Shown here: positions 303 through 39,984 of the stretch, one piece after another
Layout: every line of letters starts with the position of its first letter
Position numbering within the stretch: position 1 is the first letter of the stretch
Assembly: GCA_949299615.1 (NCBI GenBank)
Contig: CASGBM010000003.1
Span: forward strand, 1-43,109
Source: an uncultured Eubacteriales bacterium
GTDB taxonomy: Bacteria > Bacillota > Clostridia > UBA1381 > UBA9506
DNA: 43,109 nucleotides
Reading direction: 5' to 3'
The notes under the pieces: model-generated
Seen by the model: only the letters and a program-made list of their open reading frames with translations
The model's database searches: none
Told to the model about the DNA's origin: nothing
Translations under genes and position numbers: made by a program

Positions 303-382
303 ACAAATAAATATGTATTTTAAAATAGTAGGGTCTATTTTATGCATCAAAGACAGAGAGATTGTTTTGAGGAGGATTTTCT

Positions 383-1054: not shown

Positions 1055-1084
1055 TTTTATCTATAATAGATTGGAGAGGCCAAA

Positions 1085-1843: not shown

Positions 1844-1865
1844 TACTAAAATAATGGGGGGTTTT

Positions 1866-3091: not shown

Positions 3092-3674
3092 TTTTGCCCT
3101 GTCTATTTTCGGAATGACCCTCCTTTCCCCTTTGTATCTTGCGATTATAATTTGGATAAAATTGGAATCTAAGGGCCCGGTTTTTTTTCTTCAAAAACGA
3201 ATTGGAAGAAAGAAACGGGTGTTTTTTATATACAAATTTCGAACGATGCGTATGGATACGCCAAAGGATGTGCCTACACACCTTTTGGAAAATCCGCAGC
3301 AGTATATTACCAGAGCTGGTCGATTTTTAAGAAAAACCAGCTTAGATGAACTCCCTCAGATCGTAAACATATTAAAAGGGGATATGGCAATTATCGGTCC
3401 GCGGCCAGCGCTATGGAATCAATATGATCTGCTGAAATTGAGGGATAATTATGGCGCAAATGATGTACGTCCTGGTTTAACGGGCTTGGCGCAGATTTGT
3501 GGACGTGATGAACTTCCGCTTGGTGAAAAAGCAAAACTGGATGGAGAATATTGTGCAAACATCTGTTTTATCAATGACTTTAAAATATTTTTTAAGACAA
3601 TCGGCAAAGTATTGCACCGGGAAGGAATAGCTGAAGGCATGCAGCAGACAGAACGGAGGACGATTTCCGGATGA
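3060..3674 (+). CDS. Initiating phosphoglycosyl transferase (bacterial sugar transferase, PF02397)
   Basis: A 204-residue monotopic phosphoglycosyl transferase of the short PglC/WecP-like form. It should move a sugar-1-phosphate from a UDP-sugar to undecaprenyl phosphate and so start each repeat unit on the membrane. A single hydrophobic re-entrant segment lies at about 12-33. Motifs are QKRIGRKKRVFFIYKFRTMR, the catalytic Asp-Glu pair in TSLDELPQ, GDMAIIGPRPAL and RPGLTGLAQI. The N-terminal multi-span domain of WbaP/WcaJ is absent. The sugar cannot be read from the sequence. FucNAc-phosphate and related amino sugars are possible, given the FnlABC genes further down. Confidence 0.92.
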   Translation: MYKKYIKRMIDFALSIFGMTLLSPLYLAIIIWIKLESKGPVFFLQKRIGRKKRVFFIYKFRTMRMDTPKDVPTHLLENPQQYITRAGRFLRKTSLDELPQIVNILKGDMAIIGPRPALWNQYDLLKLRDNYGANDVRPGLTGLAQICGRDELPLGEKAKLDGEYCANICFINDFKIFFKTIGKVLHREGIAEGMQQTERRTISG

Positions 3675-6644: not shown

Positions 6645-6655
6645 TAGGAGAAAAA

Positions 6656-8922: not shown

Positions 8923-8950
8923 ATACAGTGCCTTAAAGGGGGCGATAGAA

Positions 8951-9922
8951 ATAGCGGGGGATGAATTAATCAGCATTATAGTGCCGGTTTATAACGTCGA
9001 GCAATATTTGTCTCGTTGTTTGGATTCGATACTTACTCAGACTTACAGAAATTTGGAAATTGTACTTGTAGATGATGGTTCGTTGGATAGAAGCGGCGAG
9101 ATTTGCGATGAATATTTAAAAAAAGATAGCCGTATTCATGTTATTCATAAAAAAAACGGCGGTTTATCTGATGCAAGAAATGTTGGAATTGAGCATGCGC
9201 ATGGGAAATATATTGGATTTATTGACAGCGACGACTGGATTGCAAAAGATATGTTTGAAGTTTTATACCGTAATCTTGACCGCTATAGAGCTGATATTTC
9301 CATTTGTCAGTTTAAATTTACTGCCAGTGAGAAAATATCGGTCGATAAAAGCAAAGAGTTTATAAATGTATACAGTAGACATCAAGCGATAGATGCGATG
9401 TTTATGGATAGAATATTTGCAAGCCATGCCTGCAATAAATTATATAAAATGCATCTGTTTAAAAAGATCCGATTTCCATTGGGAAAAGTATTTGAAGACC
9501 AGTTTACGTTATATAAAATAATTTGGGCTTGTGATAAGGTTGTGTATACAAACAGACAATGCTATTTTTATTACATCCGGGAAAACAGTATTGCACGCGC
9601 AAGCTTTTATACAAAGCAATTGGATATTTTAGATGCGCTGGATTTATGTATTGAATTTTTTAAAAAAAATTATATAAATGTGGTAAAGTATATCCAATAC
9701 TGCTGGGTAGATAATTACCTTATTCTGTTAATGAGCGCAATTCAAAACGAAAGTGACCTTTCAGTATTTGAAGCAAGGAAACATACCTTGAAACAGTATA
9801 AAAAAGGGTATTCATTGTATAAAAAGGCTAGGCTTGTTATGAAAGTGGCAGCGCAGCTTGCCGCTGTCAATATTGGCTGGTTTCGGGCGATGTTTAAAGT
9901 TTTTTTGCGAATCAAAAAATAA
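8951..9922 (+). CDS. Glycosyltransferase, GT-2 type, apparently starting at AUA
   Basis: A GT-A enzyme of about 323 residues. Motifs are the first strand LISIIVPVYN, LVDDGS (39-44), NGGLSDARNVGI and the metal motif DSDD (92-95). The first ATG/GTG/TTG in frame is GTG 8981, which would delete most of strand one and has no ribosome site nearby. The frame is open back to a TAA at 8891 without any canonical start. ATA 8951 lies eight bases after AAAGGGGG (8935-8942) and keeps the whole strand, so it is my chosen start. The alternative is a one-base deletion after ATG 8961, where one extra base would give an ordinary M-E-L-I-S-I-I start. The body of the gene is intact. Confidence 0.85.
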   Translation: MAGDELISIIVPVYNVEQYLSRCLDSILTQTYRNLEIVLVDDGSLDRSGEICDEYLKKDSRIHVIHKKNGGLSDARNVGIEHAHGKYIGFIDSDDWIAKDMFEVLYRNLDRYRADISICQFKFTASEKISVDKSKEFINVYSRHQAIDAMFMDRIFASHACNKLYKMHLFKKIRFPLGKVFEDQFTLYKIIWACDKVVYTNRQCYFYYIRENSIARASFYTKQLDILDALDLCIEFFKKNYINVVKYIQYCWVDNYLILLMSAIQNESDLSVFEARKHTLKQYKKGYSLYKKARLVMKVAAQLAAVNIGWFRAMFKVFLRIKK

Positions 9923-9980
9923 TTTGCTAAATCTCTTGTAATATATAAAGCTGTAAATGAAAGGCGATTGAGGATTTAAA

Positions 9981-11504
9981 ATGAACAAAAACAGGCAGCT
10001 AGCAATTAATATGGCGGCAAGCTTTATTGCATATTTTGTATCTATGGGAATCAACTTCTTTTTATCGCCATATATTGTCAACCATATCGGTGTGGATGCG
10101 TACGGTTTTGTTGGGCTTGCAAATAACTTTATCAGTTATGCTAGCTTGATTACAATTGCGCTTAACTCGCTTGCCGGGCGCTTTGTGACGGTTAAAATAT
10201 ATGAAAAGGATATGGAAGGCGCAAACCGTTATTTTTCTTCCGTGTTTTTTGCAAATGCTGTTATAACAGCGTTTATGGGAATTTTAGCAGCGGTTATTTT
10301 GATTTATTTGGAATATTTAATTCAGATTCCATCTTCTATATTCTGGGATGTAAAAATATTATTTGCCGTATTATTTGCCAATTGTCTGATCGGAACTTTT
10401 ACATCGGTGTTTACCATCGCGACTTTTGCAACGAACAAACTCTATCTGAATTCAATGAGACAAATTGAATCGAATATAATACGTGCGGCACTAACTGTTT
10501 TGCTGTTTGTGATTTTCTCACCGAAAATTTGCTATATCGGAATTACAGCTCTTGTAATGGGTGTTTATGTGATTATTTTTAATATATATTATACGAAAAA
10601 GCTGTTGCCGGGGATCCGGGTCAGTAGGAAATATTTTGATTTTAACGCAGTGTGGGAGTTAATTCGTTCCGGCGTATGGAATTTGATTACGCGCTTGGGG
10701 CAGCTTCTGATGGATGGCTTGGATTTATTGATTTCGAACTTGTTTATCAGCGCTACGGCAATGGGTGTGCTGTCAATAGCAAAAATGATACCAATGGCGA
10801 TAGCGGGCATTGTGGGAATGTTAGCAAATATATTTTCGCCGAACTTTACAATTTTGTATGCAGAAAAGAAGAAGGATGAATTGCTGGCTGCGGTAAAACA
10901 GTCTATGAAAATTATGGGAATTATTACTAATATACCAATTATTATTTTGATAGTTTGCGGACAAGAGTTTTTTAGCCTTTGGCAGCCAACGCAGGATGCT
11001 GAGCAGTTGCAAATTTTGTCCATTTTGACATGTTCTGGTCTGATTTTATCAGGTGGGATTAATTGTATTTTTAACATTTTCACGGTAGTAAATAAGCTAA
11101 AAATGAATTCTATTACGGTTTGCGTCTGCGGATTGTTAAACGCCGTCTTAGTTTACATATTACTTCGGTCGACGAATCTAGGGCTGTATGCGGTAGCTGG
11201 CGTGAGTTCTATTCTGGCAATTATTAAAAATTTAATTTTTATTATCCCGTATGGTGCATTCTGCCTTAAGGAGAAATGGTATGCATTTTATCCTGCAACA
11301 ATTAGACCTGTTATTTTTGTTTTGTGCAGCAGCTTTCTCGGTTGTTTAATTGGACGTATTACTCCATTTGCCGGTTGGTTAAATTTGTTTTTCATGGGTA
11401 TAGTTACCGTAATTGTTTCTGTTGCAATAGGCTGGTTCGTCATTTTGAATAAAGGTGATAGAAAATATATATACTCTTGTATAAAGAAAGGAAGAACAGC
11501 TTGA
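9981..11504 (+). CDS. Wzx-type oligosaccharide flippase (MOP superfamily)
   Basis: A 507-residue membrane protein with about 12-14 predicted spans. The N-terminus (NMAASFIAYFVSMGINFFLSPYIVNHIG) and the following YGFVGLANNFISY match the polysaccharide transporter branch. It should turn undecaprenyl-linked repeat units to the outer face for the polymerase. ATG 9981 has GAGGA upstream. Its TGA overlaps the TTG start of the next gene. A second MOP-family protein (MATE type) ends the locus, but this one has the sequence expected for the repeat-unit flippase. Confidence 0.9.
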   Translation: MNKNRQLAINMAASFIAYFVSMGINFFLSPYIVNHIGVDAYGFVGLANNFISYASLITIALNSLAGRFVTVKIYEKDMEGANRYFSSVFFANAVITAFMGILAAVILIYLEYLIQIPSSIFWDVKILFAVLFANCLIGTFTSVFTIATFATNKLYLNSMRQIESNIIRAALTVLLFVIFSPKICYIGITALVMGVYVIIFNIYYTKKLLPGIRVSRKYFDFNAVWELIRSGVWNLITRLGQLLMDGLDLLISNLFISATAMGVLSIAKMIPMAIAGIVGMLANIFSPNFTILYAEKKKDELLAAVKQSMKIMGIITNIPIIILIVCGQEFFSLWQPTQDAEQLQILSILTCSGLILSGGINCIFNIFTVVNKLKMNSITVCVCGLLNAVLVYILLRSTNLGLYAVAGVSSILAIIKNLIFIIPYGAFCLKEKWYAFYPATIRPVIFVLCSSFLGCLIGRITPFAGWLNLFFMGIVTVIVSVAIGWFVILNKGDRKYIYSCIKKGRTA

Positions 11505-12274
11505 TTATTCATTTTTTAAAAAGATGCTGCAATAAGGCAAAATTTGAGATGCATAAGCTTCAAAATAAAGCGAAGATAATTAAAAGTTTTTCGTATTTAA
11601 AATCACTCCGTATGATGTATAATGGAAAACGATGTTTTATTATAGGTAATGGTCCCAGTTTAAAAGTTGAAGATTTAGAAAAATTAAAAAATGAAGTTTG
11701 CTTATCTTCTCATCGAATATATTATATATTCTCAAAGACGGACTGGAGACCTACATATTACTGTGCACAGGATGAAGCATTAATTAATGCTTCGGCTGAC
11801 GACATTAATCATTTTGTTGTGGATTCAAAAAAAATAATCGGAGTAGTTACCGGTCATAAGTATAAAAAAATAAATGATGCCTTTTATGTACCATTGATCT
11901 TTGAAGAGTTTTATCCCAATCTGCCAAAGTTTTCGGAAAATGTGCTAAATGGGGTATATGAAGGTTTTACGGTATCTTATATGTGTATTCAGCTTGCAGT
12001 TTATATGGGCTTTAAAGAAATTTATTTGCTTGGAGTAGATCATAATTATTCTGTGACATATACAGATGATGGAAAAATTGAAAAACATACGGGGCTTCAG
12101 GATTATTTTTCTAAAGAATATATGTTAGATGTTGTACCTCAGATACATAAATCGACACTGGCTTATCAGGCGGCAAGAAAATATGCGGATGAACACGGCA
12201 TAAAAATATATAATGCTACACGCGGTGGGAAACTGGAAGCATTTGATCGAGTTGATTTTGATACTTTATTCTAG
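11501..12274 (+). CDS. GT42/DUF115-like glycosyltransferase
   Basis: A 257-residue protein with the nucleotide loop RCFIIGNGPSLK (GNGPS at 49-53) shared by the GT42 sialyltransferases (Campylobacter CstII type) and the DUF115/MptE-like family. Further similarity to CstII is visible by eye: YMCIQLAVYMGFKEIYLLGVD against VYMCAVAIALGYKEIYLSGID, and a C-terminal block where His216 falls near CstII's catalytic His188, followed by IKIYN. I infer a transferase using a CMP-activated sugar, which fits the cytidylyltransferase two genes downstream. The start is TTG 11501, overlapping the flippase TGA, seven bases after AAAGGAAG. Function is inferred, not proven. Confidence 0.7.
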   Translation: MIIHFLKRCCNKAKFEMHKLQNKAKIIKSFSYLKSLRMMYNGKRCFIIGNGPSLKVEDLEKLKNEVCLSSHRIYYIFSKTDWRPTYYCAQDEALINASADDINHFVVDSKKIIGVVTGHKYKKINDAFYVPLIFEEFYPNLPKFSENVLNGVYEGFTVSYMCIQLAVYMGFKEIYLLGVDHNYSVTYTDDGKIEKHTGLQDYFSKEYMLDVVPQIHKSTLAYQAARKYADEHGIKIYNATRGGKLEAFDRVDFDTLF

Positions 12275-12284
12275 GAGGAAACCA

Positions 12285-13232
12285 ATGAAAACATATCTTG
12301 TCACAGGAGCAGCGGGGTTTATTGGAGCGGCAACTGCAAGACAGCTAATCGCTGCAGGAAATCGTGTTGTGACGGTGGATAATTTGTCAACGGGAAAAGG
12401 AAGCAATATACCGGAAAAATGTATTTTCATCAAAGGAAATGATTATGATACTGCGGTGCTGGAAGAACTAAAAAATTATCAGTTTGAAGCAATTATACAT
12501 ATTGCAGGGCAAAGCAGCGGAGAAGTCAGCTTTGAAAACCCGGTATATGATTTGCAGACGAACACGCAGTCTACGCTTATGCTGCTGAATCTTGCAAGAG
12601 CGATGAATTGTAAAAAATTTATTTATGCCAGTTCTATGTCTGTTTATGGAGATGCGGACATAGAGTTTGTAAAGGAAGAAACCCTGCCTTGTCCGAAGTC
12701 GTTTTACGCAGTAGGAAAAATGGCGAGCGAACACTATATGCGCATTTATTCCTCGTTTGGTATTTGCTGCACAGCATTAAGATTTTTTAATGTGTATGGA
12801 GTTGGGCAGAATATGTCTAATTTAAAGCAGGGAATGGCTAGTATTTATCTTGCAATGGCTTTAAAAGATAAGCGCATTTTAGTGAAAGGTTCAAAAGAGC
12901 GATTTCGAGATTTTGTATATATTGATGATGTTGTAGAGGCTGTTTTAAAAGCTGAAAAACGCAAGATGGGAAGTATTTTTGAGATTTATAATGTTTCTAC
13001 CGGTGTAAAAAATACTGTAGAAGATGTAATTACAGAAATCAGAAAAAATTTACCATTTGCTGTCGAAGTGGAATATACGGAAGGAACACCGGGAGACCAA
13101 CGGGGAGTATATGGGGATAATTCTAAGATAAAAAAAGATCTTTTATGGTATCCTGATTATGATTTTAAAACCGGAATATCAAAAATGGTAGAATGGGCTT
13201 TAAATGATAGAAAAAGCGAGGGAAGATCATGA
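12285..13232 (+). CDS. NAD-dependent nucleotide-sugar 4-epimerase (GalE/WbpP-like SDR)
   Basis: A 315-residue extended SDR with VTGAAGFIG at 6-14, DNLSTG after the second strand, SSMSVYGD, the catalytic Tyr-x3-Lys in FYAVGK, and FFNVYGVGQ with RDFVYIDD further on. These fit UDP-hexose or UDP-HexNAc 4-epimerases. GalE itself is slightly longer. ATG 12285 follows a clean AGGAGGAAACC site. Its TGA overlaps the ATG of the cytidylyltransferase gene (ATGA), so this pair is coupled and may make and activate the same sugar. Confidence 0.85.
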   Translation: MKTYLVTGAAGFIGAATARQLIAAGNRVVTVDNLSTGKGSNIPEKCIFIKGNDYDTAVLEELKNYQFEAIIHIAGQSSGEVSFENPVYDLQTNTQSTLMLLNLARAMNCKKFIYASSMSVYGDADIEFVKEETLPCPKSFYAVGKMASEHYMRIYSSFGICCTALRFFNVYGVGQNMSNLKQGMASIYLAMALKDKRILVKGSKERFRDFVYIDDVVEAVLKAEKRKMGSIFEIYNVSTGVKNTVEDVITEIRKNLPFAVEVEYTEGTPGDQRGVYGDNSKIKKDLLWYPDYDFKTGISKMVEWALNDRKSEGRS

Positions 13233-13942
13233 AAATAACAGCACTGCTGACCGGCAGAGGAAATAATACATTAAAAGACAAGAATGTATTGGATATATTG
13301 GGAAATCCGGTACTTTATTATCCGGCAAATGCGGCGGTGAAAGCTGAAATTATTGATGATTACTATTGCAGCAGCGACGATGAGAAAATTTTAAACGCTG
13401 CAAAAACGCTGGGCTATAAGCCTATCGTAAGACCGGCAGAGCTTGCGTTGCCTACGGCGCAGCATATTGACTGTATTGTGCACGCGCTTGGCGTGATGAA
13501 AAGTGAAAACAATTTGCCGGATATTATTATTGTTCTTTTGGCAAACAATGTAACGATTAAGTCAGAGTGGATAACAGAATGTATTCAAGTGATGCAAAAA
13601 GACGATTCCATTACAGCGGTTGTACCGGTTTATGAGGATAATGATCACCATCCGCTGAGAGCAAAAACAGTAGAGTCAGACGGAACAATTTCCATGTATG
13701 AAAAGAATGTAAGCGGGAAAATTTCAACAAATCGTCAGGATTTGCCGGCGTGTTATTTTTTGGCGCATAACTTTTGGGTACTTAGAACCGAGTTTTTGTT
13801 ATCGGGCAAAGAGGGTCAGCAGCCTTGGGGATTTATGGGCAATAAAATAATTCCATATTTTATTGAAGAATCCATCGATATTCATAAGGAAATAGATTTA
13901 TACATTGCGAAAGAATGGATTAAGGAAAACTATACAGATTAG
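13229..13942 (+). CDS. CMP-sugar synthetase-like cytidylyltransferase (NeuA family)
   Basis: A 237-residue protein of the acylneuraminate cytidylyltransferase family (PF02348). The N-terminal CTP-binding loop reads ALLTGRGNNTLKDKNVLDILGNP, which departs from the usual IPARGGSKGIPRKN but keeps Arg, Gly and the Lys-Asn end. YCSSDDEKIL and a run resembling RPAELA...T.QH follow, as in NeuA/PseF/LegF. It should activate an acidic or keto sugar as CMP-sugar. No NeuB-type synthase is in the window, so the substrate is unknown. The start overlaps the previous stop (ATGA), with GAGGGAAG upstream. Confidence 0.72.
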   Translation: MKITALLTGRGNNTLKDKNVLDILGNPVLYYPANAAVKAEIIDDYYCSSDDEKILNAAKTLGYKPIVRPAELALPTAQHIDCIVHALGVMKSENNLPDIIIVLLANNVTIKSEWITECIQVMQKDDSITAVVPVYEDNDHHPLRAKTVESDGTISMYEKNVSGKISTNRQDLPACYFLAHNFWVLRTEFLLSGKEGQQPWGFMGNKIIPYFIEESIDIHKEIDLYIAKEWIKENYTD

Positions 13943-13956
13943 GGCAGGGAAGTAAA

Positions 13957-14997
13957 ATGTTTCAAAATAAAACTTTGCTGATTACCGGCGGGACGGGATC
14001 TTTTGGCAATGCCGTTTTAAAACGTTTTTTGGATACGGATATTGGTGAAATCCGTATATTTTCCAGAGATGAGAAAAAACAGGACGATATGCGCCATGTT
14101 TATCAGGCGCGTCATCCTGAGCTTAGCCATAAAATTAAGTTTTATATCGGCGACGTACGCGAAATTGAAAGTGTGAAAAATGCAATGTACGGCGTGGATT
14201 ATATTTTTCACGCGGCGGCGCTTAAGCAGGTGCCGTCGTGTGAATTTTTTCCGATTGAAGCAGTAAAAACCAATATTTTGGGTACGGATAATGTGCTTAC
14301 TGCGGCCATTGAGGAAGGGGTCAAAAAAGTAATCTGCCTTTCCACGGACAAAGCGGCGTATCCGGTGAATGCAATGGGAACATCCAAAGCGATGATGGAG
14401 AAGGCTGTCGTTGCGAAAGCGAGAACAGTTGCCCCGGAGAAAACGACCGTTTGCTGTACGCGCTATGGTAACGTGATGTGTTCGCGCGGCAGCGTGATTC
14501 CGCTGTTTATCGAGCAAATTAAGTCAGGAAAAGAGCTTACTGTAACAGAGCCAAAAATGACGCGCTTCATTATGAGCTTGGAAGAGGCAGTAGAACTGGT
14601 ACTGTTTGCATTTCAAAATGCCCAGTCCGGCGATATTATTGTGCAAAAAGCGCCTGCCTGCACGATAGAGGTGCTGGCACAGGCGGTAAAAGAGATATTT
14701 GGCGCAGAGAATCCGGTGAAAAGAATTGGAATCCGCCATGGTGAAAAAATGTATGAAACGCTTTTGACGAAAGAAGAGTGTGCTCATGCGGTGGATTTGG
14801 GAAATTTTTTCCGGGTTCCTGCAGATAAGCGCGATTTAAACTATGATAAATATTTTGTAGACGGCAACACAGAGATTTCAACAATATCTGAATTTAATTC
14901 AGATAATACGCAGTTGTTAAACGTTGATCAAGTGAAAGAAAAGCTTTTAGCGCTGGAGGATATCCAAGCGGAGTTGGAAGGATGGAAAAAGCAATGA
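13957..14997 (+). CDS. fnlA: UDP-GlcNAc 4,6-dehydratase/5-epimerase (FnlA/CapE/WbjB)
   Basis: A 346-residue SDR that converts UDP-GlcNAc to the 4-keto-6-deoxy L-talo intermediate, first step to UDP-N-acetyl-L-fucosamine. Residues 10-17 (TGGTGSFG) form the NADP loop. RIFSRDEKKQDDMRH and HAAALKQVPSCEFFP are family signatures. The catalytic segment reads MGTSK (Met140...Lys144): as in the CapE/FnlA group, Met stands where most SDRs have Tyr. RHGEKMYETLLT follows near the C-terminus. The next two genes encode the remaining enzymes of the same route. The ribosome site is GGGAAG, and the end overlaps the next gene. Confidence 0.93.
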   Translation: MFQNKTLLITGGTGSFGNAVLKRFLDTDIGEIRIFSRDEKKQDDMRHVYQARHPELSHKIKFYIGDVREIESVKNAMYGVDYIFHAAALKQVPSCEFFPIEAVKTNILGTDNVLTAAIEEGVKKVICLSTDKAAYPVNAMGTSKAMMEKAVVAKARTVAPEKTTVCCTRYGNVMCSRGSVIPLFIEQIKSGKELTVTEPKMTRFIMSLEEAVELVLFAFQNAQSGDIIVQKAPACTIEVLAQAVKEIFGAENPVKRIGIRHGEKMYETLLTKEECAHAVDLGNFFRVPADKRDLNYDKYFVDGNTEISTISEFNSDNTQLLNVDQVKEKLLALEDIQAELEGWKKQ

Positions 14998-16109
14998 AAA
15001 AGGTTTTGGTGACCGGCGCAAAGGGATTTGTGGGGAAAAACCTGATTGCAGAAATCCGGGCGCAGAATTTGGCAGAGGTGTATGAATATGACCTGGATAC
15101 ACCGAAAGAACAGCTGAAACGTTTTTGCAGAGACTGTGATTTTGTGTTCCATCTGGCAGGCGTGAACCGTCCGCAAAAGGAAGCGGAGTTTATGGAGGGA
15201 AACGCCGGATTCACGGAGGAACTGCTAAGCGTTTTGCAGTCGCAGAGCAGCCGTGCGCCAATTTTAGCGTCGTCTTCCATTCAGGCGTTATTTGATCATC
15301 CATACGGGAAAAGCAAACGCGCAGAAGAAGCATTGCTGGCACAGTATAGCAAGGAAACAGGGGTGAAAACCTATGTTTTTCGTCTTTCCAATCTATTTGG
15401 CAAATGGTGCCGTCCGAATTATAACAGTGTGGTGGCTACTTTTTGCCACAAGATTGCAAGAGATGAGGAAATTGCCATTCATGATCCGGAAACGGTTGTT
15501 CCTTTGGTTTATATTGACGATGTGGTACATGCCTTTCTTAATGCCATGGAAGGGGGAACCGTTCCGGAGGCGGATGGATTTTATACGGTTACACCGATAT
15601 ATCCGATTCGGCTTGCCGAGCTCGCGGAGCGGATCTATTCTTTTCGGGCGTCGAGGGTTTCTCTTGCCGTTCCCAATATGGGAGATGAACTGACAAAAAA
15701 GCTGTATGCCACTTATTTGAGTTATTTGCCGGAAGACCGCTTTTCCTATCCGCTTACCATGCACCAGGATGTGCGAGGTTCGTTTACGGAGTTCCTGCGG
15801 CTTGAGGGGCATGGACAGGTGTCGGTAAATGTAGCGAAACCAGGCGTGGTAAAAGGAAACCATTGGCACCATACGAAAAATGAAAAATTCCTCGTCGTCA
15901 GCGGCAGGGCAGTGATTCGTTTTCGCAAGCCGTTTGAAGAGGAAGTGTTTGAATACCATGTCAGTGGTGAACGGCTTGAGGTTGTGGATATTCCTACGGG
16001 ATATACGCATCACATTGAAAATATCGGCGATACGGATCTGGTTGCGCTCATGTGGGCGAATGAGCCGTTTGATCCAAATGAGCCGGATACATTTTCTTTG
16101 GAAGTCTGA
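14994..16109 (+). CDS. fnlB: Bifunctional C3-epimerase/C4-reductase of UDP-FucNAc synthesis (FnlB/CapF/WbjC)
   Basis: A 371-residue two-domain enzyme. The N-terminal SDR domain has VTGAKGFVG (6-14), LAGVNRPQ and Tyr104-x3-Lys108 in HPYGKSK. The C-terminal cupin domain (about 255-371) has HQDVRGSFTEFLR and a histidine cluster NHWHHTKNEKF (about 288-298). In CapF the cupin epimerises C3 of the FnlA product and the SDR then reduces C4, giving UDP-6-deoxy-L-talosamine derivative. The size matches CapF. ATG 14994 overlaps the previous TGA (ATGA). ATG 14982 is possible but sits directly on the GGAAGG site. Confidence 0.92.
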   Translation: MKKVLVTGAKGFVGKNLIAEIRAQNLAEVYEYDLDTPKEQLKRFCRDCDFVFHLAGVNRPQKEAEFMEGNAGFTEELLSVLQSQSSRAPILASSSIQALFDHPYGKSKRAEEALLAQYSKETGVKTYVFRLSNLFGKWCRPNYNSVVATFCHKIARDEEIAIHDPETVVPLVYIDDVVHAFLNAMEGGTVPEADGFYTVTPIYPIRLAELAERIYSFRASRVSLAVPNMGDELTKKLYATYLSYLPEDRFSYPLTMHQDVRGSFTEFLRLEGHGQVSVNVAKPGVVKGNHWHHTKNEKFLVVSGRAVIRFRKPFEEEVFEYHVSGERLEVVDIPTGYTHHIENIGDTDLVALMWANEPFDPNEPDTFSLEV

Positions 16110-16129
16110 TTTTAATTTTAGAGATGAAA

Positions 16130-16149
16130 AGAGCGGTGCGCTTTTTTTT
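16130..16149 (+). terminator. Weak terminator-like element between fnlB and fnlC
   Basis: A short GC stem (16132-16135 with 16139-16142, three-base loop) flanked by A-rich sequence on the left and a run of eight T on the right (16142-16149). It could reduce transcription into fnlC and the genes after it. The stem is only four strong pairs, so it may not work. Confidence 0.3.
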
Positions 16150-16195
16150 AAAGGGGCAGTACTACGATTTTGCAGAACGAAAGGGGTTTTTTGAT

Positions 16196-17320
16196 ATGCA
16201 GCGCTTAAAACTGGCAACGATTGTAGGGACCCGGCCGGAAATTATCCGATTGTCTGAGGTGATGAAAGCCTGTGACCGGTATTTTGAGCAGGTTGTGATA
16301 CATACGGGGCAAAATTGGGATTATACTTTAAATCAGGTGTTTTTTGAAGAGCTGGGTTTAAAGGAGCCGAATTATTATTTAGACAGCGTTGGCAAGGATT
16401 TAGGTGAAACGATGGGCAATATTATCGCCAAGTCCTATCAGGTGCTGTCTGAAATCAATCCGGATGCGCTGCTGGTTTTGGGAGACACCAACAGCTGTTT
16501 GGCGGCAATTTCGGCCAAACGCCTGAAGATTCCGATTTTTCATATGGAAGCAGGAAACCGCTGTTTTGACCAGAATGTGCCGGAAGAGATTAACCGCAAA
16601 ATTGTAGACCATATCTCCGACATCAATATGCCATATACGGAACATTCCAGACGTTATTTACTTTCGGAAGGATTTCGCAAGGAACATATTTTCGTAACGG
16701 GTTCGCCTATGCGCGAGGTTTTAGCCGCGCATAAGGAAGAAATAGATGCAAGCGATGTATTATCCCGCCTGGCGCTTGAGCCGGGAAAGTATATTTTGGT
16801 ATCCGCGCACAGGGAAGAAAACATTGACAATGAAGCGCATTTTCTTTCGTTAATGACGGCGATTAACCGAATGGCAGAGCGGTATCAGCTGCCAGTGATC
16901 TATTCTACCCATCCGCGGAGCAGAAAATGGATTGAAAAGAGGAATTTTCAGTTTCATCCGTTGGTACAAAGCTTGCAGCCATTTGGATTTTTTGATTACA
17001 ACTGTTTGCAGCAAAACAGTTTTTGTGTTCTTTCCGACAGCGGAACATTATCAGAAGAAAGTGCCATGCTCGGCTTTACCGGCGTACTTTTGCGAAACTC
17101 CACAGAACGGCCGGAGGTGTTGGATAAAGGTACCGTTGTGATTGGCGGTATTTGCGGCGAAGAACTGGAGCAAGCGGTAGAGCTTGCAAAAGCAATGCAG
17201 GAAAACAGGGAGCCGACTATATTGGCATGTGATTATCAGGACACGAACGTTTCGGTCAAAGTTGTGAAAATTATCCAAAGCTATACCAAAATCATTAATG
17301 AACTGATTTGGCGCAAATAG
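16196..17320 (+). CDS. fnlC: UDP-N-acetyl-L-fucosamine 2-epimerase (FnlC/CapG/WbjD, WecB superfamily)
   Basis: A 374-residue non-hydrolysing 2-epimerase that completes UDP-L-FucNAc. The GT-B-like signatures are all present: VGTRPEIIRLSEVM, HTGQNWDY, VLGDTNSCLAA, MEAGNRCFDQNVPEEINRKI, SAHREENID and SDSGTLSEESAMLG. The NRCFDQNVPEE form is typical of the CapG/FnlC branch, whereas WecB reads RTGN. ATG 16196 follows AAAGGGG (16180-16186). An in-frame ATG at 16124 would add 24 residues of poor quality crossing the T-run and is rejected. It is separated from fnlB by 86 bases. Confidence 0.92.
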   Translation: MQRLKLATIVGTRPEIIRLSEVMKACDRYFEQVVIHTGQNWDYTLNQVFFEELGLKEPNYYLDSVGKDLGETMGNIIAKSYQVLSEINPDALLVLGDTNSCLAAISAKRLKIPIFHMEAGNRCFDQNVPEEINRKIVDHISDINMPYTEHSRRYLLSEGFRKEHIFVTGSPMREVLAAHKEEIDASDVLSRLALEPGKYILVSAHREENIDNEAHFLSLMTAINRMAERYQLPVIYSTHPRSRKWIEKRNFQFHPLVQSLQPFGFFDYNCLQQNSFCVLSDSGTLSEESAMLGFTGVLLRNSTERPEVLDKGTVVIGGICGEELEQAVELAKAMQENREPTILACDYQDTNVSVKVVKIIQSYTKIINELIWRK

Positions 17321-17328
17321 TTTGAAAC

Positions 17329-17337
17329 GGGGGGGGG
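17329..17337 (+). repeat. Homopolymer of nine G in a ribosome binding site
   Basis: Nine consecutive G directly upstream of AAGAGAAA and the ATG at 17346. It is the longest G tract I noticed, in an otherwise AT-rich genome, and forms the Shine-Dalgarno sequence of the nucleotidyltransferase-like gene. Confidence 0.9.
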
Positions 17338-17345
17338 AAGAGAAA

Positions 17346-18611
17346 ATGACGCAGGCATTTTCGGATATGGTGTATCTGTTTTCCTGTGCAATTCACGCAA
17401 GAGAGCCGAAAAAAGAAAAAGTAGAGAATATGGATCTGCTTATGGTCCGCCGGGAAGCAATTTTACAGGGTGTGTGGCCGTTTGTGTTTACTGCAATTAA
17501 GCAGGCAGCGCAAGAGGGCGCTTTTGCCGCATATTCCGATGAGATTCAAACATGGAATATGGAACTTTTATTTATGCTAATGAGTAAGACGCAAAAGGAT
17601 TCGTATCTTGTTGCAAGCATCAAGCACATGGAACGGGCGAAAATTCCCTGCTGTATTTTAAAAGGCGCTTCTTTGGCGGCGCTTTATCCCAATCCCGACT
17701 GCCGGATTTCCGGCGATATGGATGTGCTGATCCCACCGGAACGGGAAGGAGAAGCCTGCCGGATTTTAAAAAAAGATGGGTTTGACCTTTTAACAAGAGG
17801 AGCTACCTCCCATCATGTAGTTGCAAAGCATCCGTCGGCAGGCACTTTAGAGCTGCATGTCAAACTTTATGATGATATTTATGCCGATCAGTGGTTTGGA
17901 GAAGAATGTGCCGTTACGGAACCGTATCGCACTTTTGAAACGGAGCAGGGAAAATTTTCTGCCCTGGGTGCATCAGACGGAGCAGTTTTTGTGTTATTTC
18001 ATTTTATTAAACATTTTTTGTATACCGGAGCAGGAATCCGGCTTTTATCCGATGTGTTGCTGTATTTCTGCGCTTTTCGGGATCAAATGGACTGGAAAAG
18101 GCTGGAACGGGTGCTGACGTCCATGAAATGTGACCGCTTATTTGCGCATATGATCGGGGTGGGAGTGCATTATCTCGGTTTTGATGCCGAGTGCTTTCCG
18201 CCGGCGGATTATGACCTTGCTGTTTTAGAACGGCTGATGGACGATTTGTGTGAGCGGGGCGGTTTTATGCGGGAGACAGATCATAGCGGGGATATTTTTC
18301 TGCCGTACTTTAAACAGCTTATGCAGGAGCAGGGAAAAGACAGCGAAAAATATTTTGCAGATCGCCGCAAAGCAAGCTGGAAAAGCTTGTTGTTTCCGCG
18401 CAGAAAAACGATGGAAAATAATTATCCTTACGTGATGAAATCCCCGCTTTTGATCCCTGTTGCCTGGGTTCATCGTGCGTGCCGGTTTATCTGGCGCAAA
18501 TATATTGTGCGAAAACCCTCGGAGGAATGGGAGCTTTATCATGAACGGCCTGTTGAGCAAGGAGCACACCAAAAGCGTCTGCGTCTTGCAAAGGACTTGG
18601 ATATGATATAA
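17346..18611 (+). CDS. Nucleotidyltransferase-fold protein (PF14907 family), function unknown
   Basis: A 421-residue protein with the signature CCILKGASLAALYPNPDCR-SGDMDVLI (Lys, then Gly-Asp-x-Asp metal pair, at about 105-132), which marks the uncharacterised nucleotidyltransferase family NTP_transf_5. A His-rich HHVVAKHPS and LELHVKL strand follow with the likely third carboxylate neighbourhood. Members occur in polysaccharide and peptide-modification loci, but no reaction is established. The ATG at 17346 is eight bases after a run of nine G (17329-17337) that acts as ribosome site. This invites slipped-strand variation. An upstream TTG 17322 would read through that run and has no ribosome site. 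Confidence 0.8.
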   Translation: MTQAFSDMVYLFSCAIHAREPKKEKVENMDLLMVRREAILQGVWPFVFTAIKQAAQEGAFAAYSDEIQTWNMELLFMLMSKTQKDSYLVASIKHMERAKIPCCILKGASLAALYPNPDCRISGDMDVLIPPEREGEACRILKKDGFDLLTRGATSHHVVAKHPSAGTLELHVKLYDDIYADQWFGEECAVTEPYRTFETEQGKFSALGASDGAVFVLFHFIKHFLYTGAGIRLLSDVLLYFCAFRDQMDWKRLERVLTSMKCDRLFAHMIGVGVHYLGFDAECFPPADYDLAVLERLMDDLCERGGFMRETDHSGDIFLPYFKQLMQEQGKDSEKYFADRRKASWKSLLFPRRKTMENNYPYVMKSPLLIPVAWVHRACRFIWRKYIVRKPSEEWELYHERPVEQGAHQKRLRLAKDLDMI

Positions 18612-18663
18612 AAGCACAGGTGGGAAGAATATTTTGCATCTCTGTTTTGATGGAAGCCAAAGG

Positions 18664-20022
18664 ATGGAACAAACAATGAGTATTTTTGTCAAAGAAAGCT
18701 ATTTTTATAAACGTTTTTTTGCACTCACGGCAGCAATTGCATTGCAAAACCTGATTGTATTTTCGGTTAACCTAGCGGATAATGTGATGCTAGGCGCTTA
18801 TCAGGAATCGGCGCTGTCCGGAGTGGCGCTGGTAAATCAAATTCAATTTCTGCTTCAAATGCTGATTATGGGGATCGGCGAGGGAATGATTATCCTGTCA
18901 TCCCGTTACTGGGGCAGCCGCAATTTGAAGCCGATTGCATCCGTCACAGGCTTGGGGCTGCGGTTGGGTCTTGCAGTTGCGGGTTTCATGTGGCTGGTTG
19001 TTTTTTTATTTCCTCATGCGGTGCTTTCGTTATTTACCAAAGAAGAAGCTGTGATTTATGAAGGCGTAAACTATTTGCAGATTATTTGTTTTTCCTATTT
19101 CTTTTTTGCAGTAACAAACATCATGATTGCAACGCTAAGAAGTGTGGAAACTGTTCGGATTGCATTTGTGGTGTCATTTTCAACGCTGATTATTAATGTA
19201 TGCCTGAATTACATATTTATTTTCGGACATTTCGGTGCACCGGAGCTGGGTGCGCGTGGTGCGGCGATTGCTACATTGACGGCGCGGATAATAGAAACCG
19301 TTATCATTTTTGTTTATGTAAAAGCGATTGACCGCAAGCTGCGGCTGAAGCTGAAGGATTTGCTTCCGTTTGATAAGGAGCTGTTTTTGCGGTATCTGCG
19401 CGTTGGGGCGCCTGTTATTTTGTCCAATGCGGTGTGGGGGATTGCGATGGCGGTGCAAACGGCAATCTTAGGGCACATGGGAAAAGAAGCTATTGCGGCA
19501 AACAGCATAGCCACTACGGTTTTTCAAATCTTAACGGTTGTTACTTACGGTTCTGCCTCGGCAACGGCGGTTTTAATCGGCAAAACAATTGGCGAAGGGC
19601 GCAGCAGTGTGATACGAGAATATGCAAAAACACTGCAAATGCTTTATCTTATCATTGGAATTGTGACAGGGTTAGGGTTATATTTTTGTAAAAATTTTAT
19701 CATCGGTTTTTATGCAGTGTCGGAGGAGACAAAGGCTTTGGCGCTTCAATTTATGACGGTACTTTCTATCACGGTGGTAGGAACGGCATATCAAATGCCC
19801 AGCTTGACTGGAATTGTCCGCAGCGGCGGCGATACCTCATTCGTTTTGTATAATGATTTAATTTTTATGTGGTTAATTGTGCTGCCATCTTCGGCGCTTG
19901 CCGCCTTTGTGTTTCATTTTTCTCCGCTGATTGTGTTTATTTGTTTAAAATCTGATCAAATTTTAAAGTGTGCCGTTGCGGTGGTAAAAGTAAACCGGTA
20001 CCGCTGGATTCGGCTGCCGTAG
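18664..20022 (+). CDS. MATE-family efflux/export protein
   Basis: A 452-residue protein with about 12 membrane segments in two halves. Marks are NLADNVMLGAYQESALSGVALVNQIQF in the first half and AVWGIAMAVQTAILGHMGKEAIAANSIA in the second, both typical of MATE transporters (MOP superfamily). In this position it may export or flip a product of the locus, or it may be an unrelated drug or metabolite antiporter. Starts at 18634 (TTG), 18664 and 18676 (ATG) are all possible. GGAAG at 18652-18656 favours 18664. It is the last gene of the polysaccharide locus. A 50-base palindrome begins on its stop codon. Confidence 0.85.
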   Translation: MEQTMSIFVKESYFYKRFFALTAAIALQNLIVFSVNLADNVMLGAYQESALSGVALVNQIQFLLQMLIMGIGEGMIILSSRYWGSRNLKPIASVTGLGLRLGLAVAGFMWLVVFLFPHAVLSLFTKEEAVIYEGVNYLQIICFSYFFFAVTNIMIATLRSVETVRIAFVVSFSTLIINVCLNYIFIFGHFGAPELGARGAAIATLTARIIETVIIFVYVKAIDRKLRLKLKDLLPFDKELFLRYLRVGAPVILSNAVWGIAMAVQTAILGHMGKEAIAANSIATTVFQILTVVTYGSASATAVLIGKTIGEGRSSVIREYAKTLQMLYLIIGIVTGLGLYFCKNFIIGFYAVSEETKALALQFMTVLSITVVGTAYQMPSLTGIVRSGGDTSFVLYNDLIFMWLIVLPSSALAAFVFHFSPLIVFICLKSDQILKCAVAVVKVNRYRWIRLP

Positions 20023-35761: not shown

Positions 35762-35790
35762 TTGACTTTTGTAAAAGAACAAGATACAAT
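35762..35790 (+). promoter_or_regulatory. Promoter of the LacI-type regulator and catabolic cluster
   Basis: TTGACT (35762-35767) and TACAAT (35785-35790) are 17 bases apart. A palindrome lies just downstream, so the promoter is probably repressed by the regulator it expresses. Confidence 0.78.
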
Positions 35791-35795
35791 GTAAT

Positions 35796-35816
35796 CGTTT
35801 TCAGAAAACGTTTACA
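35796..35816 (+). promoter_or_regulatory. Candidate LacI-family operator
   Basis: CGTTTTC-A-GAAAACG (35796-35810) is a perfect palindrome around one central base. It overlaps a second inverted pattern, GAAAACGTTTAC (35804-35815), with the central CG usual in LacI-family sites. It lies at about +1 to +18 of the transcript, a position that would block transcription of the regulator gene and what follows. Confidence 0.65.
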
Positions 35817-35837
35817 TAAACGGGGAGGCGTTAGAAA

Positions 35838-36815
35838 ATAGGCATTAAAGATGTGGCAAAATATGCAAATGTTTCCGTGGCAACGGTATCGCGAGTCTTA
35901 AACGGGACCGGTGCGGTAGCAGATCAGACGAAGAAAGCGGTTTTGGCTGCAGCACAAAAGCTGGGATATTCTCCAAACCTTTTGGGTAAAAACCTCCGCC
36001 AGAAACAGACAAGGGTGATTTTGGTCATGCTGTCCTCCCTTGCCAACACGTTTTGTTCCAAAGTTGTGCATGGAATTGAAAAAGAAGCGGTAAAAAACGG
36101 CTATAACATTATGATTTGTGCAACGGAAGATTCCCGGAAAAGCGAGGAGACCTATTTAAATTTTGTGAGGAACAAAATGGCGGATGGCATAATTATTTTA
36201 AACAGTACGCTGACGGAAGAGGAAATGAAAGAAATTTCTTCTGCGTTTCCGGTGGTTCAGTGCAGTGAATATGTGGATACACAAACAACGCCGTATGTGT
36301 CGATTGACAATCGTGCGGCGGCGTATGATGCGGTTTCCTGTCTGATCCATAGCGGACGGAAAAAAATTGTCTATATCGGGGTTGCAAATGACCTGATCAG
36401 CTCGCGGCTCCGGCTAGAAGGATACCGAAAGGCGTTAGAAGACAACGGGATTGCATTCGATGAAAGCATGCTGCTTTTTGGCAATTATGGTTATCGGAGT
36501 GCAATGCGGGCAGTCAATAATTTTTTGAAAAAAAATATATTTTTTGATGCTGTTTTCGCTATTTCAGACCGCATGGCAGCTGGGGCAATTTCTGCTGTCC
36601 GGCAAAGCGGACGCCGGATCCCGGATGATGTGAGCGTCATTGGATTTGACAATACGGACATTACCTATATGTTTGAACCTGCCATATCTACTGTAGCACA
36701 GCCACAGAATGAAATGGGAGAGGCGGCGTTTCGCATGCTGCTGAGCAGGATGCAGGAGGAAATGCCCAAGAATATAATTTTAGACCATAAGCTGATTTTA
36801 AGAAATTCAAATTAG
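35838..36815 (+). CDS. LacI-family transcriptional regulator, apparently starting at AUA
   Basis: A repressor of about 325 residues. The N-terminal helix-turn-helix reads GIKDVAKYANVSVATVSRVLNG, and the periplasmic-binding-like sugar domain ends with DVSVIGFDNTD and FEPAISTVAQP. An in-frame TAG at 35832-35834 closes the frame just upstream, and the first canonical start (GTG 35853) would remove the start of helix one and is 24 bases from GGAGG. ATA 35838 is nine bases after GGGGAGG and gives the family-typical N-terminus. ATT 35844 is a poorer choice. It probably senses the substrate of the six genes downstream. Confidence 0.9.
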   Translation: MGIKDVAKYANVSVATVSRVLNGTGAVADQTKKAVLAAAQKLGYSPNLLGKNLRQKQTRVILVMLSSLANTFCSKVVHGIEKEAVKNGYNIMICATEDSRKSEETYLNFVRNKMADGIIILNSTLTEEEMKEISSAFPVVQCSEYVDTQTTPYVSIDNRAAAYDAVSCLIHSGRKKIVYIGVANDLISSRLRLEGYRKALEDNGIAFDESMLLFGNYGYRSAMRAVNNFLKKNIFFDAVFAISDRMAAGAISAVRQSGRRIPDDVSVIGFDNTDITYMFEPAISTVAQPQNEMGEAAFRMLLSRMQEEMPKNIILDHKLILRNSN

Positions 36816-36849
36816 GAGAAATTATTAATAATAAAAAGGAGAGGTAATC

Positions 36850-37989
36850 ATGGCAGCAGATGAAGTTTTGAGCCAGTTTAAGCAGTCGGAGGAAAAAAAG
36901 GAAATCAAATTTGATAAAAAGTTTAAAGTTGGGATTATTGGAACAGGCTGGATTGCAGAAGCCCACGTGGAAAGCTATAAAAATATGCCGGACGTGGAGA
37001 TTGTTGCAGGCGCGGACTTAATTGACGGCAAAGCAGAAAAATTTTTCAAACGTTTTGGCGTAGAAAACGTCCGCTGCTATCCAGATCACAAATCTATGCT
37101 GGAAAACGAGGAGCTGGATGCGGTCAGCGTATGCACCTACAATGCGACGCATGCGGAATGTACCATTGACGCGCTCAATAAAGGTGTGAATGTTTTGCTG
37201 GAAAAACCCATGTGTGTGACGATCGAGGAAGCGGCGGACATTATGCGAGCGGAAAAAAAGAGCGGAAAAGTGCTTACGGTCGGTTTTCAGCCGCGCGGCG
37301 ATGAAAATATGATCAAAATTAAGGAAATTGTGGAATCCGGTGTTTTAGGAAAAATTTATTATATCCAGACAGGCGGAGGACGCCGCCGCGGGATTCCGGG
37401 AAGTACTTTTATAGAAAAGAAAACGGCTGGTGTTGGCGCATTGGGCGACATTGGCTGTTATTCCCTTGACATGGTGTTAAATGCGATTGGCTATCCAAAA
37501 CCGCTGACGGTAACCGGTTATACGTCTAATTTCTTTGGAACAAGCACAGAATACTATCCGCCGGAAGACGCTAACCGGTTTGACGTAGATGATTTTGCGG
37601 CGGCGTTTATCCGTTTGGAAGGCGGAATCATCCTTGACTTTAGAATCGCATGGGCCATGCATTTAGATACCCCGGGAGATACTATTATCATGGGTACGAA
37701 AGGCAGCCTGAGAATCCCGTCGACGGAGTGTTGGAACGGGACAGTCGGCGGTCCGATGAAAATATACCATGATGTGGCAGGCAGTATGGTAGAGACAGTA
37801 ATTCCGGTGATTCCATCAAACGGCAGCCTGTTTGATAAAAAGATCCGATCTTTTCTGGATGCAATAAAAAACCATACGCCGGCACCGGTACCTACCAGCC
37901 AGATTTTGTATAACCAGGCAATTATTGATGGCATTATGAAGTCGGCGCAAGCTGGAAAAGAAATTGAGATTCAAATCCCTGAAATATAA
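36850..37989 (+). CDS. Gfo/Idh/MocA-family oxidoreductase (first of three)
   Basis: A 379-residue NAD(P)-dependent sugar oxidoreductase. The Rossmann loop VGIIGTGWIAEAH is preceded by an unusual charged extension of about 26 residues. LLEKPMC carries the conserved EKP lysine, and GALGDIGCYSLDMVL the catalytic GDIG-x-H/Y segment, here with Tyr where His is usual. The family oxidises or reduces a hydroxyl of sugars, inositols and glycosides. ATG 36850 follows AAAGGAGAGG. It lies 34 bases after the regulator gene, probably in one transcript. Confidence 0.9.
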   Translation: MAADEVLSQFKQSEEKKEIKFDKKFKVGIIGTGWIAEAHVESYKNMPDVEIVAGADLIDGKAEKFFKRFGVENVRCYPDHKSMLENEELDAVSVCTYNATHAECTIDALNKGVNVLLEKPMCVTIEEAADIMRAEKKSGKVLTVGFQPRGDENMIKIKEIVESGVLGKIYYIQTGGGRRRGIPGSTFIEKKTAGVGALGDIGCYSLDMVLNAIGYPKPLTVTGYTSNFFGTSTEYYPPEDANRFDVDDFAAAFIRLEGGIILDFRIAWAMHLDTPGDTIIMGTKGSLRIPSTECWNGTVGGPMKIYHDVAGSMVETVIPVIPSNGSLFDKKIRSFLDAIKNHTPAPVPTSQILYNQAIIDGIMKSAQAGKEIEIQIPEI

Positions 37990-38028
37990 GAGTCAAAATA
38001 AAAGTTATAATGATTGGAGCGATATATA

Positions 38029-38862
38029 ATGAAAAAATTTAAAGTGGGTTTGCAACTATATTCCATTCGCGACGATATGGAAAAAGATATGGCGGCAGCT
38101 TTGAAAAAAGTGAAAGAAATAGGCTATGACTATGTGGAGTTTGCGGGATATTTTGGACACAGCGCTGATGAAGTGCGTGCTCTTTTGGATCAAAATGGTT
38201 TGGAATGCATTTCTGTGCATCAGGTGTACGATGTATTTTTAGAAGATGAGAAAACCAATATTGACTTTTTAAAAACGATTGGAGCTAAGTTTTGCGCAGT
38301 TCCGTGGATGGGAGTGGAAAAACACGCCGGGCACGGACAGTTTGACAAAACGGTGGAAGAGTTTTTAACTGTTGGCAAGGCGCTTTTGGCAAATGGAATT
38401 CAAATGCTGTATCACAACCATGATTTTGAATTTGAAAAATATGAAGGAAAATTTTTGCTTGACTGGCTGTATGACAGTGTTCCGGCAGACCTGTTAAAAA
38501 CAGAGCTGGATACCTGCTGGGTTCGTTATGCAGGACAGGATCCGGCAGAGTATTTGAGAAAGTACACGGGAAGAAGCCCTATTGTCCACCTGAAGGATTT
38601 TGTCTGCAAACGGCTCAATGCCGGTGCGGCATATGCATTAATTGATGATGAAGGAAAAGAGCAAAAACAGGAAACAAAAGAGGACAATGGATTTGAATTT
38701 CGTCCGGTTGGTTCTGGGATGCAGGATTTTCCGGCAATTTTAAAAGCGGCGGAGGACGCGGGGGCAGATTATGTTATTGTGGAACAAGATCAGGCTCCAA
38801 CCGCAACACCGATGGAATCAGCGGCTATGAGCAGAGAGTACTTAAAATCTTTGGGCCTGTAA
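38029..38862 (+). CDS. Sugar phosphate isomerase/epimerase-like TIM barrel (first of two)
   Basis: A 277-residue barrel of the xylose-isomerase-like family (PF01261). The likely metal ligands are Glu134 in YHNHDFEFE, Asp161 in TELDTCW, His187 in VHLKDF and Glu252 in VIVEQDQ. YSIRDDMEKDMAAALKKVKEIGYDYVEFAG is the typical N-terminus. Members include IolE dehydratase, ketose 3-epimerases and the lyase-type proteins that act on 3-keto-glycosides. Between two Gfo/Idh/MocA genes, the last is an attractive guess. ATG 38029 follows GGAG at nine bases. Confidence 0.88.
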   Translation: MKKFKVGLQLYSIRDDMEKDMAAALKKVKEIGYDYVEFAGYFGHSADEVRALLDQNGLECISVHQVYDVFLEDEKTNIDFLKTIGAKFCAVPWMGVEKHAGHGQFDKTVEEFLTVGKALLANGIQMLYHNHDFEFEKYEGKFLLDWLYDSVPADLLKTELDTCWVRYAGQDPAEYLRKYTGRSPIVHLKDFVCKRLNAGAAYALIDDEGKEQKQETKEDNGFEFRPVGSGMQDFPAILKAAEDAGADYVIVEQDQAPTATPMESAAMSREYLKSLGL

Positions 38863-38913
38863 TTGTTTATACAAAATGGGAAAAATCATTTTATAGAATA
38901 AGGAGTTGTCAAT

Positions 38914-39984
38914 ATGTTAAAATTGGGAATTATCGGTTGCGGCGGAATTGCAAACGGAAAGCATTTGCCTGCCTTAAAAAAGATTCAAGAGGTAGAAATG
39001 GTTGCGTTTTGTGACATTATTGCAGAGCGTGCGGAAAAAGCGGCGCGGGAATACGGCACGAAAGATGCGCGCGTTTATACGGATTATCAGGAGATGCTGG
39101 CAAAAGAAAAATTAAATGTGGTACATGTTTTAACGCCGAATATCTCCCACGCTCCGATTTCCATTGCGGCAATGGAAGCCGGCTGCGATGTTATGTGTGA
39201 AAAACCGATGGCAAAAACTTATGAGATGGCGAAACAGATGTTAGAGGCAAGAGATCGGACTGGCAGAAAATTGACCATTGGTTATCAGAACCGGTTCCGT
39301 CAGGACAGCCTTTTCTTAAAGCGCGCCTGTGAAAATGGCGATCTGGGTGAAATTTATTATGCAAAGGCACATGCGCTCCGTAGAAGAGCAGTTCCAACGT
39401 GGGGTGTCTTTTTAGACGAAGAAGCCCAAGGCGGCGGCCCGTTAATCGATATCGGAACCCATGCGCTGGATCTTACGTTATGGTGCATGGACAATTATAA
39501 GGTAAAAAGCGTAAAAGGCGTTGTTTATAAGAAATTGGGAGACCAGACAGAAACCGGCAATGCTTGGGGCGATTGGGATCCAGAAAAATTTACGGTAGAG
39601 GACTCGGCTTTTGGATTCATCATAATGGAAAACGGCGCGACCATTGTTTTGGAAAGCAGCTGGGCAATTAATATGCTGGATACCATTGAGGCGGCAACTA
39701 CACTAGCGGGAACCAAGGCCGGTGCGGATATGAGGGACGGACTGCGGATGAACAGCGTGCAGTATGGCAAACAAGTGGTGACCAAACCAGACCTGTCCGC
39801 CGGCGGCGTGGCATTTTACGACGGAGCTTCAGCGGCTCCGGAAGACCTGGAAGCAAGACAATGGATTGACGCGGTGTTAAACGATAAAGAGCCGCTCGTA
39901 AAACCGGAACAGGCGCTTGTAGTAACGCAGATTTTGGAAGCAATTTACGAAAGCGCCCGCACAGGCAAAACCATAGAATTTTAA
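38914..39984 (+). CDS. Gfo/Idh/MocA-family oxidoreductase (second of three)
   Basis: A 356-residue NAD(P)-dependent oxidoreductase. LGIIGCGGIANGKHLPALKK is the cofactor loop, CEKPMAKT the EKP motif and GPLIDIGTHALDLTLW the DIG-x-H active-site segment with the expected histidine. The C-terminal substrate sheet is present and complete. It differs clearly from the first and third copies, so the three probably act on different positions or intermediates rather than being recent duplicates. ATG 38914 follows AAGGAG. About 51 AT-rich bases separate it from the gene before. Confidence 0.92.
   Translation: MLKLGIIGCGGIANGKHLPALKKIQEVEMVAFCDIIAERAEKAAREYGTKDARVYTDYQEMLAKEKLNVVHVLTPNISHAPISIAAMEAGCDVMCEKPMAKTYEMAKQMLEARDRTGRKLTIGYQNRFRQDSLFLKRACENGDLGEIYYAKAHALRRRAVPTWGVFLDEEAQGGGPLIDIGTHALDLTLWCMDNYKVKSVKGVVYKKLGDQTETGNAWGDWDPEKFTVEDSAFGFIIMENGATIVLESSWAINMLDTIEAATTLAGTKAGADMRDGLRMNSVQYGKQVVTKPDLSAGGVAFYDGASAAPEDLEARQWIDAVLNDKEPLVKPEQALVVTQILEAIYESARTGKTIEF

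Follow-up and report, generated by a model that had tools for sequence, protein, structure and literature searches.

The question raised by this locus is where translation of a LacI-family regulator gene begins. The gene lies in the window, by which we mean the whole stretch of 43,109 nucleotides analysed here, contig C3 in the draft genome of a gut-type member of the Clostridia, assembled in 208 contigs. Its open frame (35835-36815, + strand, 326 codons) is shut upstream by an in-frame TAG at 35832-35834, after which the codons read AAA (35835), ATA (35838-35840), GGC, ATT, AAA, GAT and GTG (35853). As read from the sequence, no ATG, GTG or TTG occurs in frame from TAG 35832 to GTG 35853 in the conserved I-K-D-V-A, and no ATG occurs in any frame from the predicted promoter to ATA 35838. 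Reading in frame, the earliest canonical codon is GTG 35853, which encodes the valine of I-K-D-V-A and lies within helix 1 of the DNA-binding domain. AUA is a very rare start codon. A sequence-only reading of this DNA had proposed it as the start of the regulator, and the coordinates it gave for the start region proved correct in every case. The features of the region are as follows.

35762 to 35790, + strand: sigma-70-like promoter, TTGACT - 17 nt - TACAAT, from a consensus scan with 10 of 12 matches
35789 to 35817, + strand: candidate LacI-type operator from a repeat search, inverted repeat ATGTAATCGTTTTC-A-GAAAACGTTTACAT with 14-nt arms that are 93% complementary
35822 to 35828, + strand: Shine-Dalgarno (SD) sequence GGGGAGG, 9 nt before ATA, anti-SD duplex -10.8 kcal/mol
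35832 to 35834, + strand: in-frame TAG read from the sequence, closing the frame upstream
35838 to 35840, + strand: ATA, putative start codon, with no canonical start available and with relatives that have ATA, ATC or ATT in the same role
35838 to 36815, + strand: LacI-family transcriptional regulator, 325 amino acids counted from ATA (Pfam PF00356, PF00532, PF13377)
36850 to 37989, + strand: Gfo/Idh/MocA-type oxidoreductase (Pfam PF01408), the next gene, 34 nt downstream of the regulator
38029 to 38862, + strand: xylose-isomerase-like TIM-barrel (AP_endonuc_2) sugar isomerase/epimerase (Pfam PF01261), likely in the same operon
38914 to 39984, + strand: second Gfo/Idh/MocA-type oxidoreductase (Pfam PF01408), likely in the same operon

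The regulator carries an N-terminal LacI helix-turn-helix (PF00356, E 8.7e-19, residues 4-48) and a C-terminal periplasmic-binding-protein-like sensor domain (PF00532, Peripla_BP_1, 1.2e-31; PF13377, 3.2e-31), and its nearest solved relatives are CcpA and PurR. It scored below the curated NCBIfam cut-offs for the CcpA, CytR, RbsR and PurR equivalogs (best CytR with 254.8 of 436 bits, CcpA with 233 of 442), and judged by its sequence it is a LacI-family group separate from these equivalogs.

Start codons among orthologues and relatives

We applied one start-calling rule to 138 loci (137 distinct), comprising orthologues and near relatives of the regulator. Thirteen of the 137 relatives had an AUH codon (AUA, AUC or AUU) with a strong SD and lacked an SD-served canonical start, a proportion that is not an unbiased frequency, as the relatives were drawn by profile searches seeded with a set already holding AUH members. 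The codon at the SD-spaced position was ATA in seven (the window, L038, L039, L044, L107, L120 and L176), ATC in five (L040, L125, L127, L164 and L194) and ATT in one (L041). The window gene belongs to this class, having no usable canonical start and an AUH codon at SD spacing. A phylum-wide search with a profile of the clade gave 10 further relatives, all starting with ATG; these stand outside the 137, and the overall AUH frequency is slightly lower with them.

Six of the 13 (the window, L038, L039, L044, L164 and L176) contain no canonical codon in frame anywhere within the stretch searched. The other seven (L040, L041, L107, L120, L125, L127 and L194) have an in-frame GTG, TTG or ATG abutting or overlapping the SD, and their AUH calls are less clear, resting on our judgement that such SD-overlapping codons would be unusable. 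We rejected these codons as starts on their duplex energies of -0.5 to -2.8, whereas those of the AUH codons reach -10.5 to -16.2. Three of the seven (L125, L127 and L194) come from different species of a single genus and share the ATC codon. In a relative of this trio, L191 of genome G594, the codon aligned with Met is ACG (GAGGTGAGGTAT-ACG-GCC-ACA-ATT) and a GTG lies inside the SD; the ACG is a possible start, and the locus was excluded from the 13 as ambiguous.

In eight of the 13 the AUH codon coincides exactly with the position, three codons ahead of the conserved Ile, at which the relatives start most often (68 of 124 canonical genes). The closest orthologue (L036, the same as L002), from a goat caecum MAG and with 67% identity, has GTG at this position, where the window has AAA. 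As the distance from SD to Ile is unchanged in it, the window holds no hidden upstream ATG or indel; the sequence-only reading had named an orthologue whose ATG lies upstream and is connected through an indel as the finding that would count against it, and alignment with L036 instead gave an identical SD-to-I-K-D-V spacing. That reading had also asked whether ATA is conserved or replaced by ATG in orthologues. Alignment showed that AUH does recur (13/137), yet ATG and GTG are found too within the window's own clade.

The rejected start at GTG 35853, or at another internal canonical codon, would leave the first helix truncated. GTG is a common start codon, and seven of the 13 AUH relatives have it at this valine; however, the other six have a codon other than GTG there, and in them the next canonical codon lies 6-18 codons into the domain. 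No suitably spaced SD precedes GTG 35853 (best duplex -2.4), and all canonical relatives include the I-K-D-V residues. We consider such an internal start highly improbable. A sequencing or assembly error hiding a true ATG has in its favour that the genome is a 208-contig draft and that the ATA of the window is known from one assembly, but AUH codons were found at the SD-spaced position in 13 records of different sources, including the three congeneric species with identical ATC. As AUH thus recurs in independent assemblies, and errors would not gather on the start codons of one gene family while sparing 42 paralogues, an error is very unlikely. Initiation at AUA 35838 is strongly supported by the orthologues, in which ATA, ATC or ATT occurs at the SD spacing and often aligns with Met, and on this comparison the LacI-family gene very probably starts there.

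Control genes and genome survey

As a control we inspected the LacI paralogues in the same genomes, none of which (0/42) lacked a canonical start; two of the 42 were flagged by the script, and inspection found ATG in both. Set against this, the 13 AUH cases among 137 relatives exceed what chance would give. As a positive control, all 14 infC genes found in these Clostridia genomes (L195-L208) had an Ile codon (AUU, AUC or AUA) in the place of the start codon, preceded by a strong SD; in some genomes the codons were identified by eye on the translations. The infC of the window's genome (G000:C35; L204, L361) reads GGAGGTGCTTTTCCG-ATT-AGT, and that of genome G290 has ATA at the start position. 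With an Ile codon in 14 of 14 genes, AUH initiation is, to judge from these sequences, normal in these bacteria.

We further surveyed starts in 1.15 Mb, about half of the window's genome, with 714 genes (about 700-800 ORFs). An AUH codon at an SD-core site upstream of any canonical start was found in just three ORFs, namely the regulator, infC and a dubious HD-domain gene, compared to 421 canonical starts that have an SD core in these 714 genes, and the relative genome G001 looks the same. The HD-domain gene (L366 14583, G000:C40) has AAGGAGG-C-ATA upstream of a plausible ATG at 14619, which has no clear SD. An energy-based version of the survey also raised ATA 8951 in a GT2 glycosyltransferase gene of the window (8894-9919, + strand). 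This gene has no ATG, GTG or TTG before its first strand (ISIIVPVYN), and ATA 8951, preceded by AAAGGGGG at a distance of about 8 nt (duplex about -13), is a second candidate AUA start in the window. The gene belongs to a long one-direction cluster of capsule type (371-20019, + strand), with features of capsule or exopolysaccharide synthesis (CpsB/CapC, VanZ, glycosyltransferases, EpsG, flippase-like, MptE-like and PseF-like).

These counts bear on the idea that initiation is globally relaxed and that ATA is a common start in this organism. The GT2 gene could be taken to favour it, as could the better use of AUA, AUU and AUC by clostridia than by E. coli: in Clostridium reporters AUA, AUU, AUC and CUG gave 5-20% of AUG behind one leader, compared to 0.04-3% for such codons in E. 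coli (PMC9680021). However, with three AUH ORFs against 421 SD-core canonical starts, AUH starts are rare and gene-specific in the window's genome, and since the half-genome survey gave so few candidates we rejected global AUA use as quite improbable. The sequence-only reading had offered two inferences, a scarce autoregulated repressor and an altered fidelity of initiation. The first fits best with the self-operator, the position as first gene of the operon and the strong SD, the scarcity itself being presumed; the second fares poorly with the few AUH candidates in half of the genome.

Evolution of the start codon

A maximum-likelihood tree of 136 proteins, made with a quick search and SH-aLRT support only, placed the window in a clade of 13 members (support 89), whose start codons are AUH in eight, GTG in two and ATG in three. 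The distribution of AUH starts needs 8 changes on the tree, at least 6 of them on well supported branches, and involves several lineages. The trait is not fixed, as the nearest relative L036 has GTG and three other clade members have ATG. Both members of the pair L038/L039 share ATA, and so do both of L044/L107, although their third codon positions are just 37% and 40% identical and ATG is one mutation away. For L125/L194, in which synonymous change is unsaturated, dN was 0.017 and dS 0.32. From this low ratio and the ATA kept across 37-40% third-position identity it follows that the AUH-start genes are under purifying selection and that the rare codon is long-lasting. A decaying pseudogene that has lost its start codon, loss of ATG being a usual first lesion, is extremely unlikely on this evidence, as AUH pairs are under purifying selection and AUH persists over long divergence; moreover, the frame in the window is fully open, with all domain motifs, the strong SD and the operator kept.

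The mean SD duplex energy was -9.5 kcal/mol for ATG, -11.1 for GTG, -11.3 for TTG and -12.9 for AUH starts, values that are partly circular because the start was chosen by the best SD. With relatedness removed, stronger SDs still went with non-ATG starts (median p 0.016). The recurrence of AUA, AUC or AUU starts among relatives of the repressor in other Clostridia suggests that evolution keeps a self-regulated repressor weakly translated.

Operator, operon and proposed mechanism

The palindrome at 35789-35817 is TGTAAnCGnTTACA-like, with a central CG near the promoter, and on its sequence resembles operators of the LacI/GalR family; it overlaps the expected transcription start. Allowing one mismatch at most, we found a TGTAAnCGnTTACA-like site upstream in 12 of the 13 AUH members compared to 57 of 123 others (p 0.002 on raw counts). 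After correction for relatedness this association between AUH start and self-operator was gone, and a causal link of the AUH start to autoregulation is therefore unproven. A co-directional next gene did not distinguish the AUH members (12/13) from the canonical ones (70/84; p 0.68).

A scan for terminator-like sites between the regulator and the gene at 36850-37989 found none. In most relatives examined the next gene is of the same Gfo/Idh/MocA family, and a LacI-family regulator with one or more Gfo/Idh/MocA oxidoreductases and an AP_endonuc_2 isomerase/epimerase forms a recurring operon (window 35838-39984, L036-L044, L107, L112, L116, L120, L125 and L164).

We propose that the ordinary initiator tRNA begins synthesis of the repressor at AUA 35838, steered by the strong SD, and that initiation there would run at a fraction of the rate that AUG would give. 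The gene would be first in an operon whose promoter bears the repressor's own probable operator. The weak start would then keep repressor levels down in relation to the sugar-catabolic enzymes encoded on the same mRNA, and a low repressor level would prevent its over-accumulation once the operon is induced. Here we infer initiation at AUA, the initiation rate, autoregulation, co-transcription and the selective reason. As a whole, the explanation that weak AUH initiation, aided by a strong SD, limits the amount of an autoregulated repressor compared to the enzymes of its own operon appears likely from the sequence data; taken separately, and granted the AUA start, the inference on dosage is somewhat better supported than its opposite.

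Alternatively, the AUA start may be real but near AUG in strength, so that the codon drifts neutrally among those that clostridia tolerate and attenuation is not selected. Behind another leader, six alternative codons indeed reached 40-100% of AUG in Clostridium (PMC9680021), and the operator association disappears with relatedness corrected. With AUH nearly equal to AUG in some clostridial leaders, "scarce" may be an overstatement. However, the paralogues in the same genomes show no such drift to AUH (0/42), AUH starts are rare genome-wide as judged by the half-genome survey, and the stronger SDs of non-ATG starts outlast the correction for relatedness. We therefore regard neutral drift as unlikely and prefer selected attenuation of the repressor. 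A bolder possibility, which we consider doubtful, is that the AUH-started LacI repressors and the AUH-started infC form one translational regulon, in which IF3 activity, varying with growth state, sets the supply of repressor. If so, the readiness of these sugar operons would depend on growth state as well as on inducer, and repeated switching among AUA, AUC, AUU, GUG, UUG and AUG would tune the set-point.

Gene finders accept ATG, GTG and TTG as starts. Repressors with AUH starts are therefore likely to be annotated with wrong N-termini, either cut into the DNA-binding helix or extended back through the SD. A rethinking of gene annotation in Clostridium has already been urged (PMC9680021). 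A family with repeated rare starts beside unaffected paralogues also provides a natural comparative series, which may be used to ask whether start-codon strength is selected for repressor dosage, and which bears on whether clostridia as a group use AUA, AUC and AUU as regulatory starts.

Comparison with known systems

Weak starts are known from several regulators. In S. aureus, AUA starts infC and the repressor gene ccpN, both with extended SDs, and the output of ccpN is about 10-30% of that with AUG (PMC13009471). Like our regulator, ccpN of S. aureus and B. subtilis, a carbon-metabolism repressor, has a strong SD before its AUA start (PMC13009471). However, the repressor family of ccpN is unrelated as far as known, its AUA is conserved whereas ATA, ATC, ATT, GTG, TTG and ATG interchange among the orthologues described here, and the LacI-family gene heads its own operon, controlled by a candidate operator. 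Similarly, infC, which encodes IF3 and is found in the same genomes, has an AUH start (AUU, AUA or AUC) behind a strong SD, but infC is thought to be autoregulated via the start-codon discrimination of IF3 itself, whereas feedback by the LacI-family regulator would go through the operator.

E. coli lacI is likewise a LacI-family sugar repressor, and its weak GTG start increases the basal expression of lac and favours growth in the gut; a non-ATG start was seen in 13 of 32 carbohydrate regulators surveyed in E. coli (PMC11445065). Unlike our gene, lacI does not have an AUH codon and is transcribed separately from the operon that it controls. Streptomyces sigR, which has a GTC start under IF3 control (PMC5472188), is another regulator whose level a very rare start codon keeps low by way of IF3; it differs in being a sigma factor with another codon, and its dependence on IF3 comes from a direct test, whereas for the LacI-family gene such dependence would be conjecture.

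A limited literature search found no report of AUA-started LacI-family genes, which does not prove their absence. AUA-started repressors are already known from ccpN, and the LacI-family case adds to them. On the sequences compared, what appears to set this case apart is that AUH starts turn up repeatedly and replace one another within a single LacI-family group, while the paralogues in the same genomes are unaffected. The novelty seems to lie in the type of gene and in this repeated appearance.
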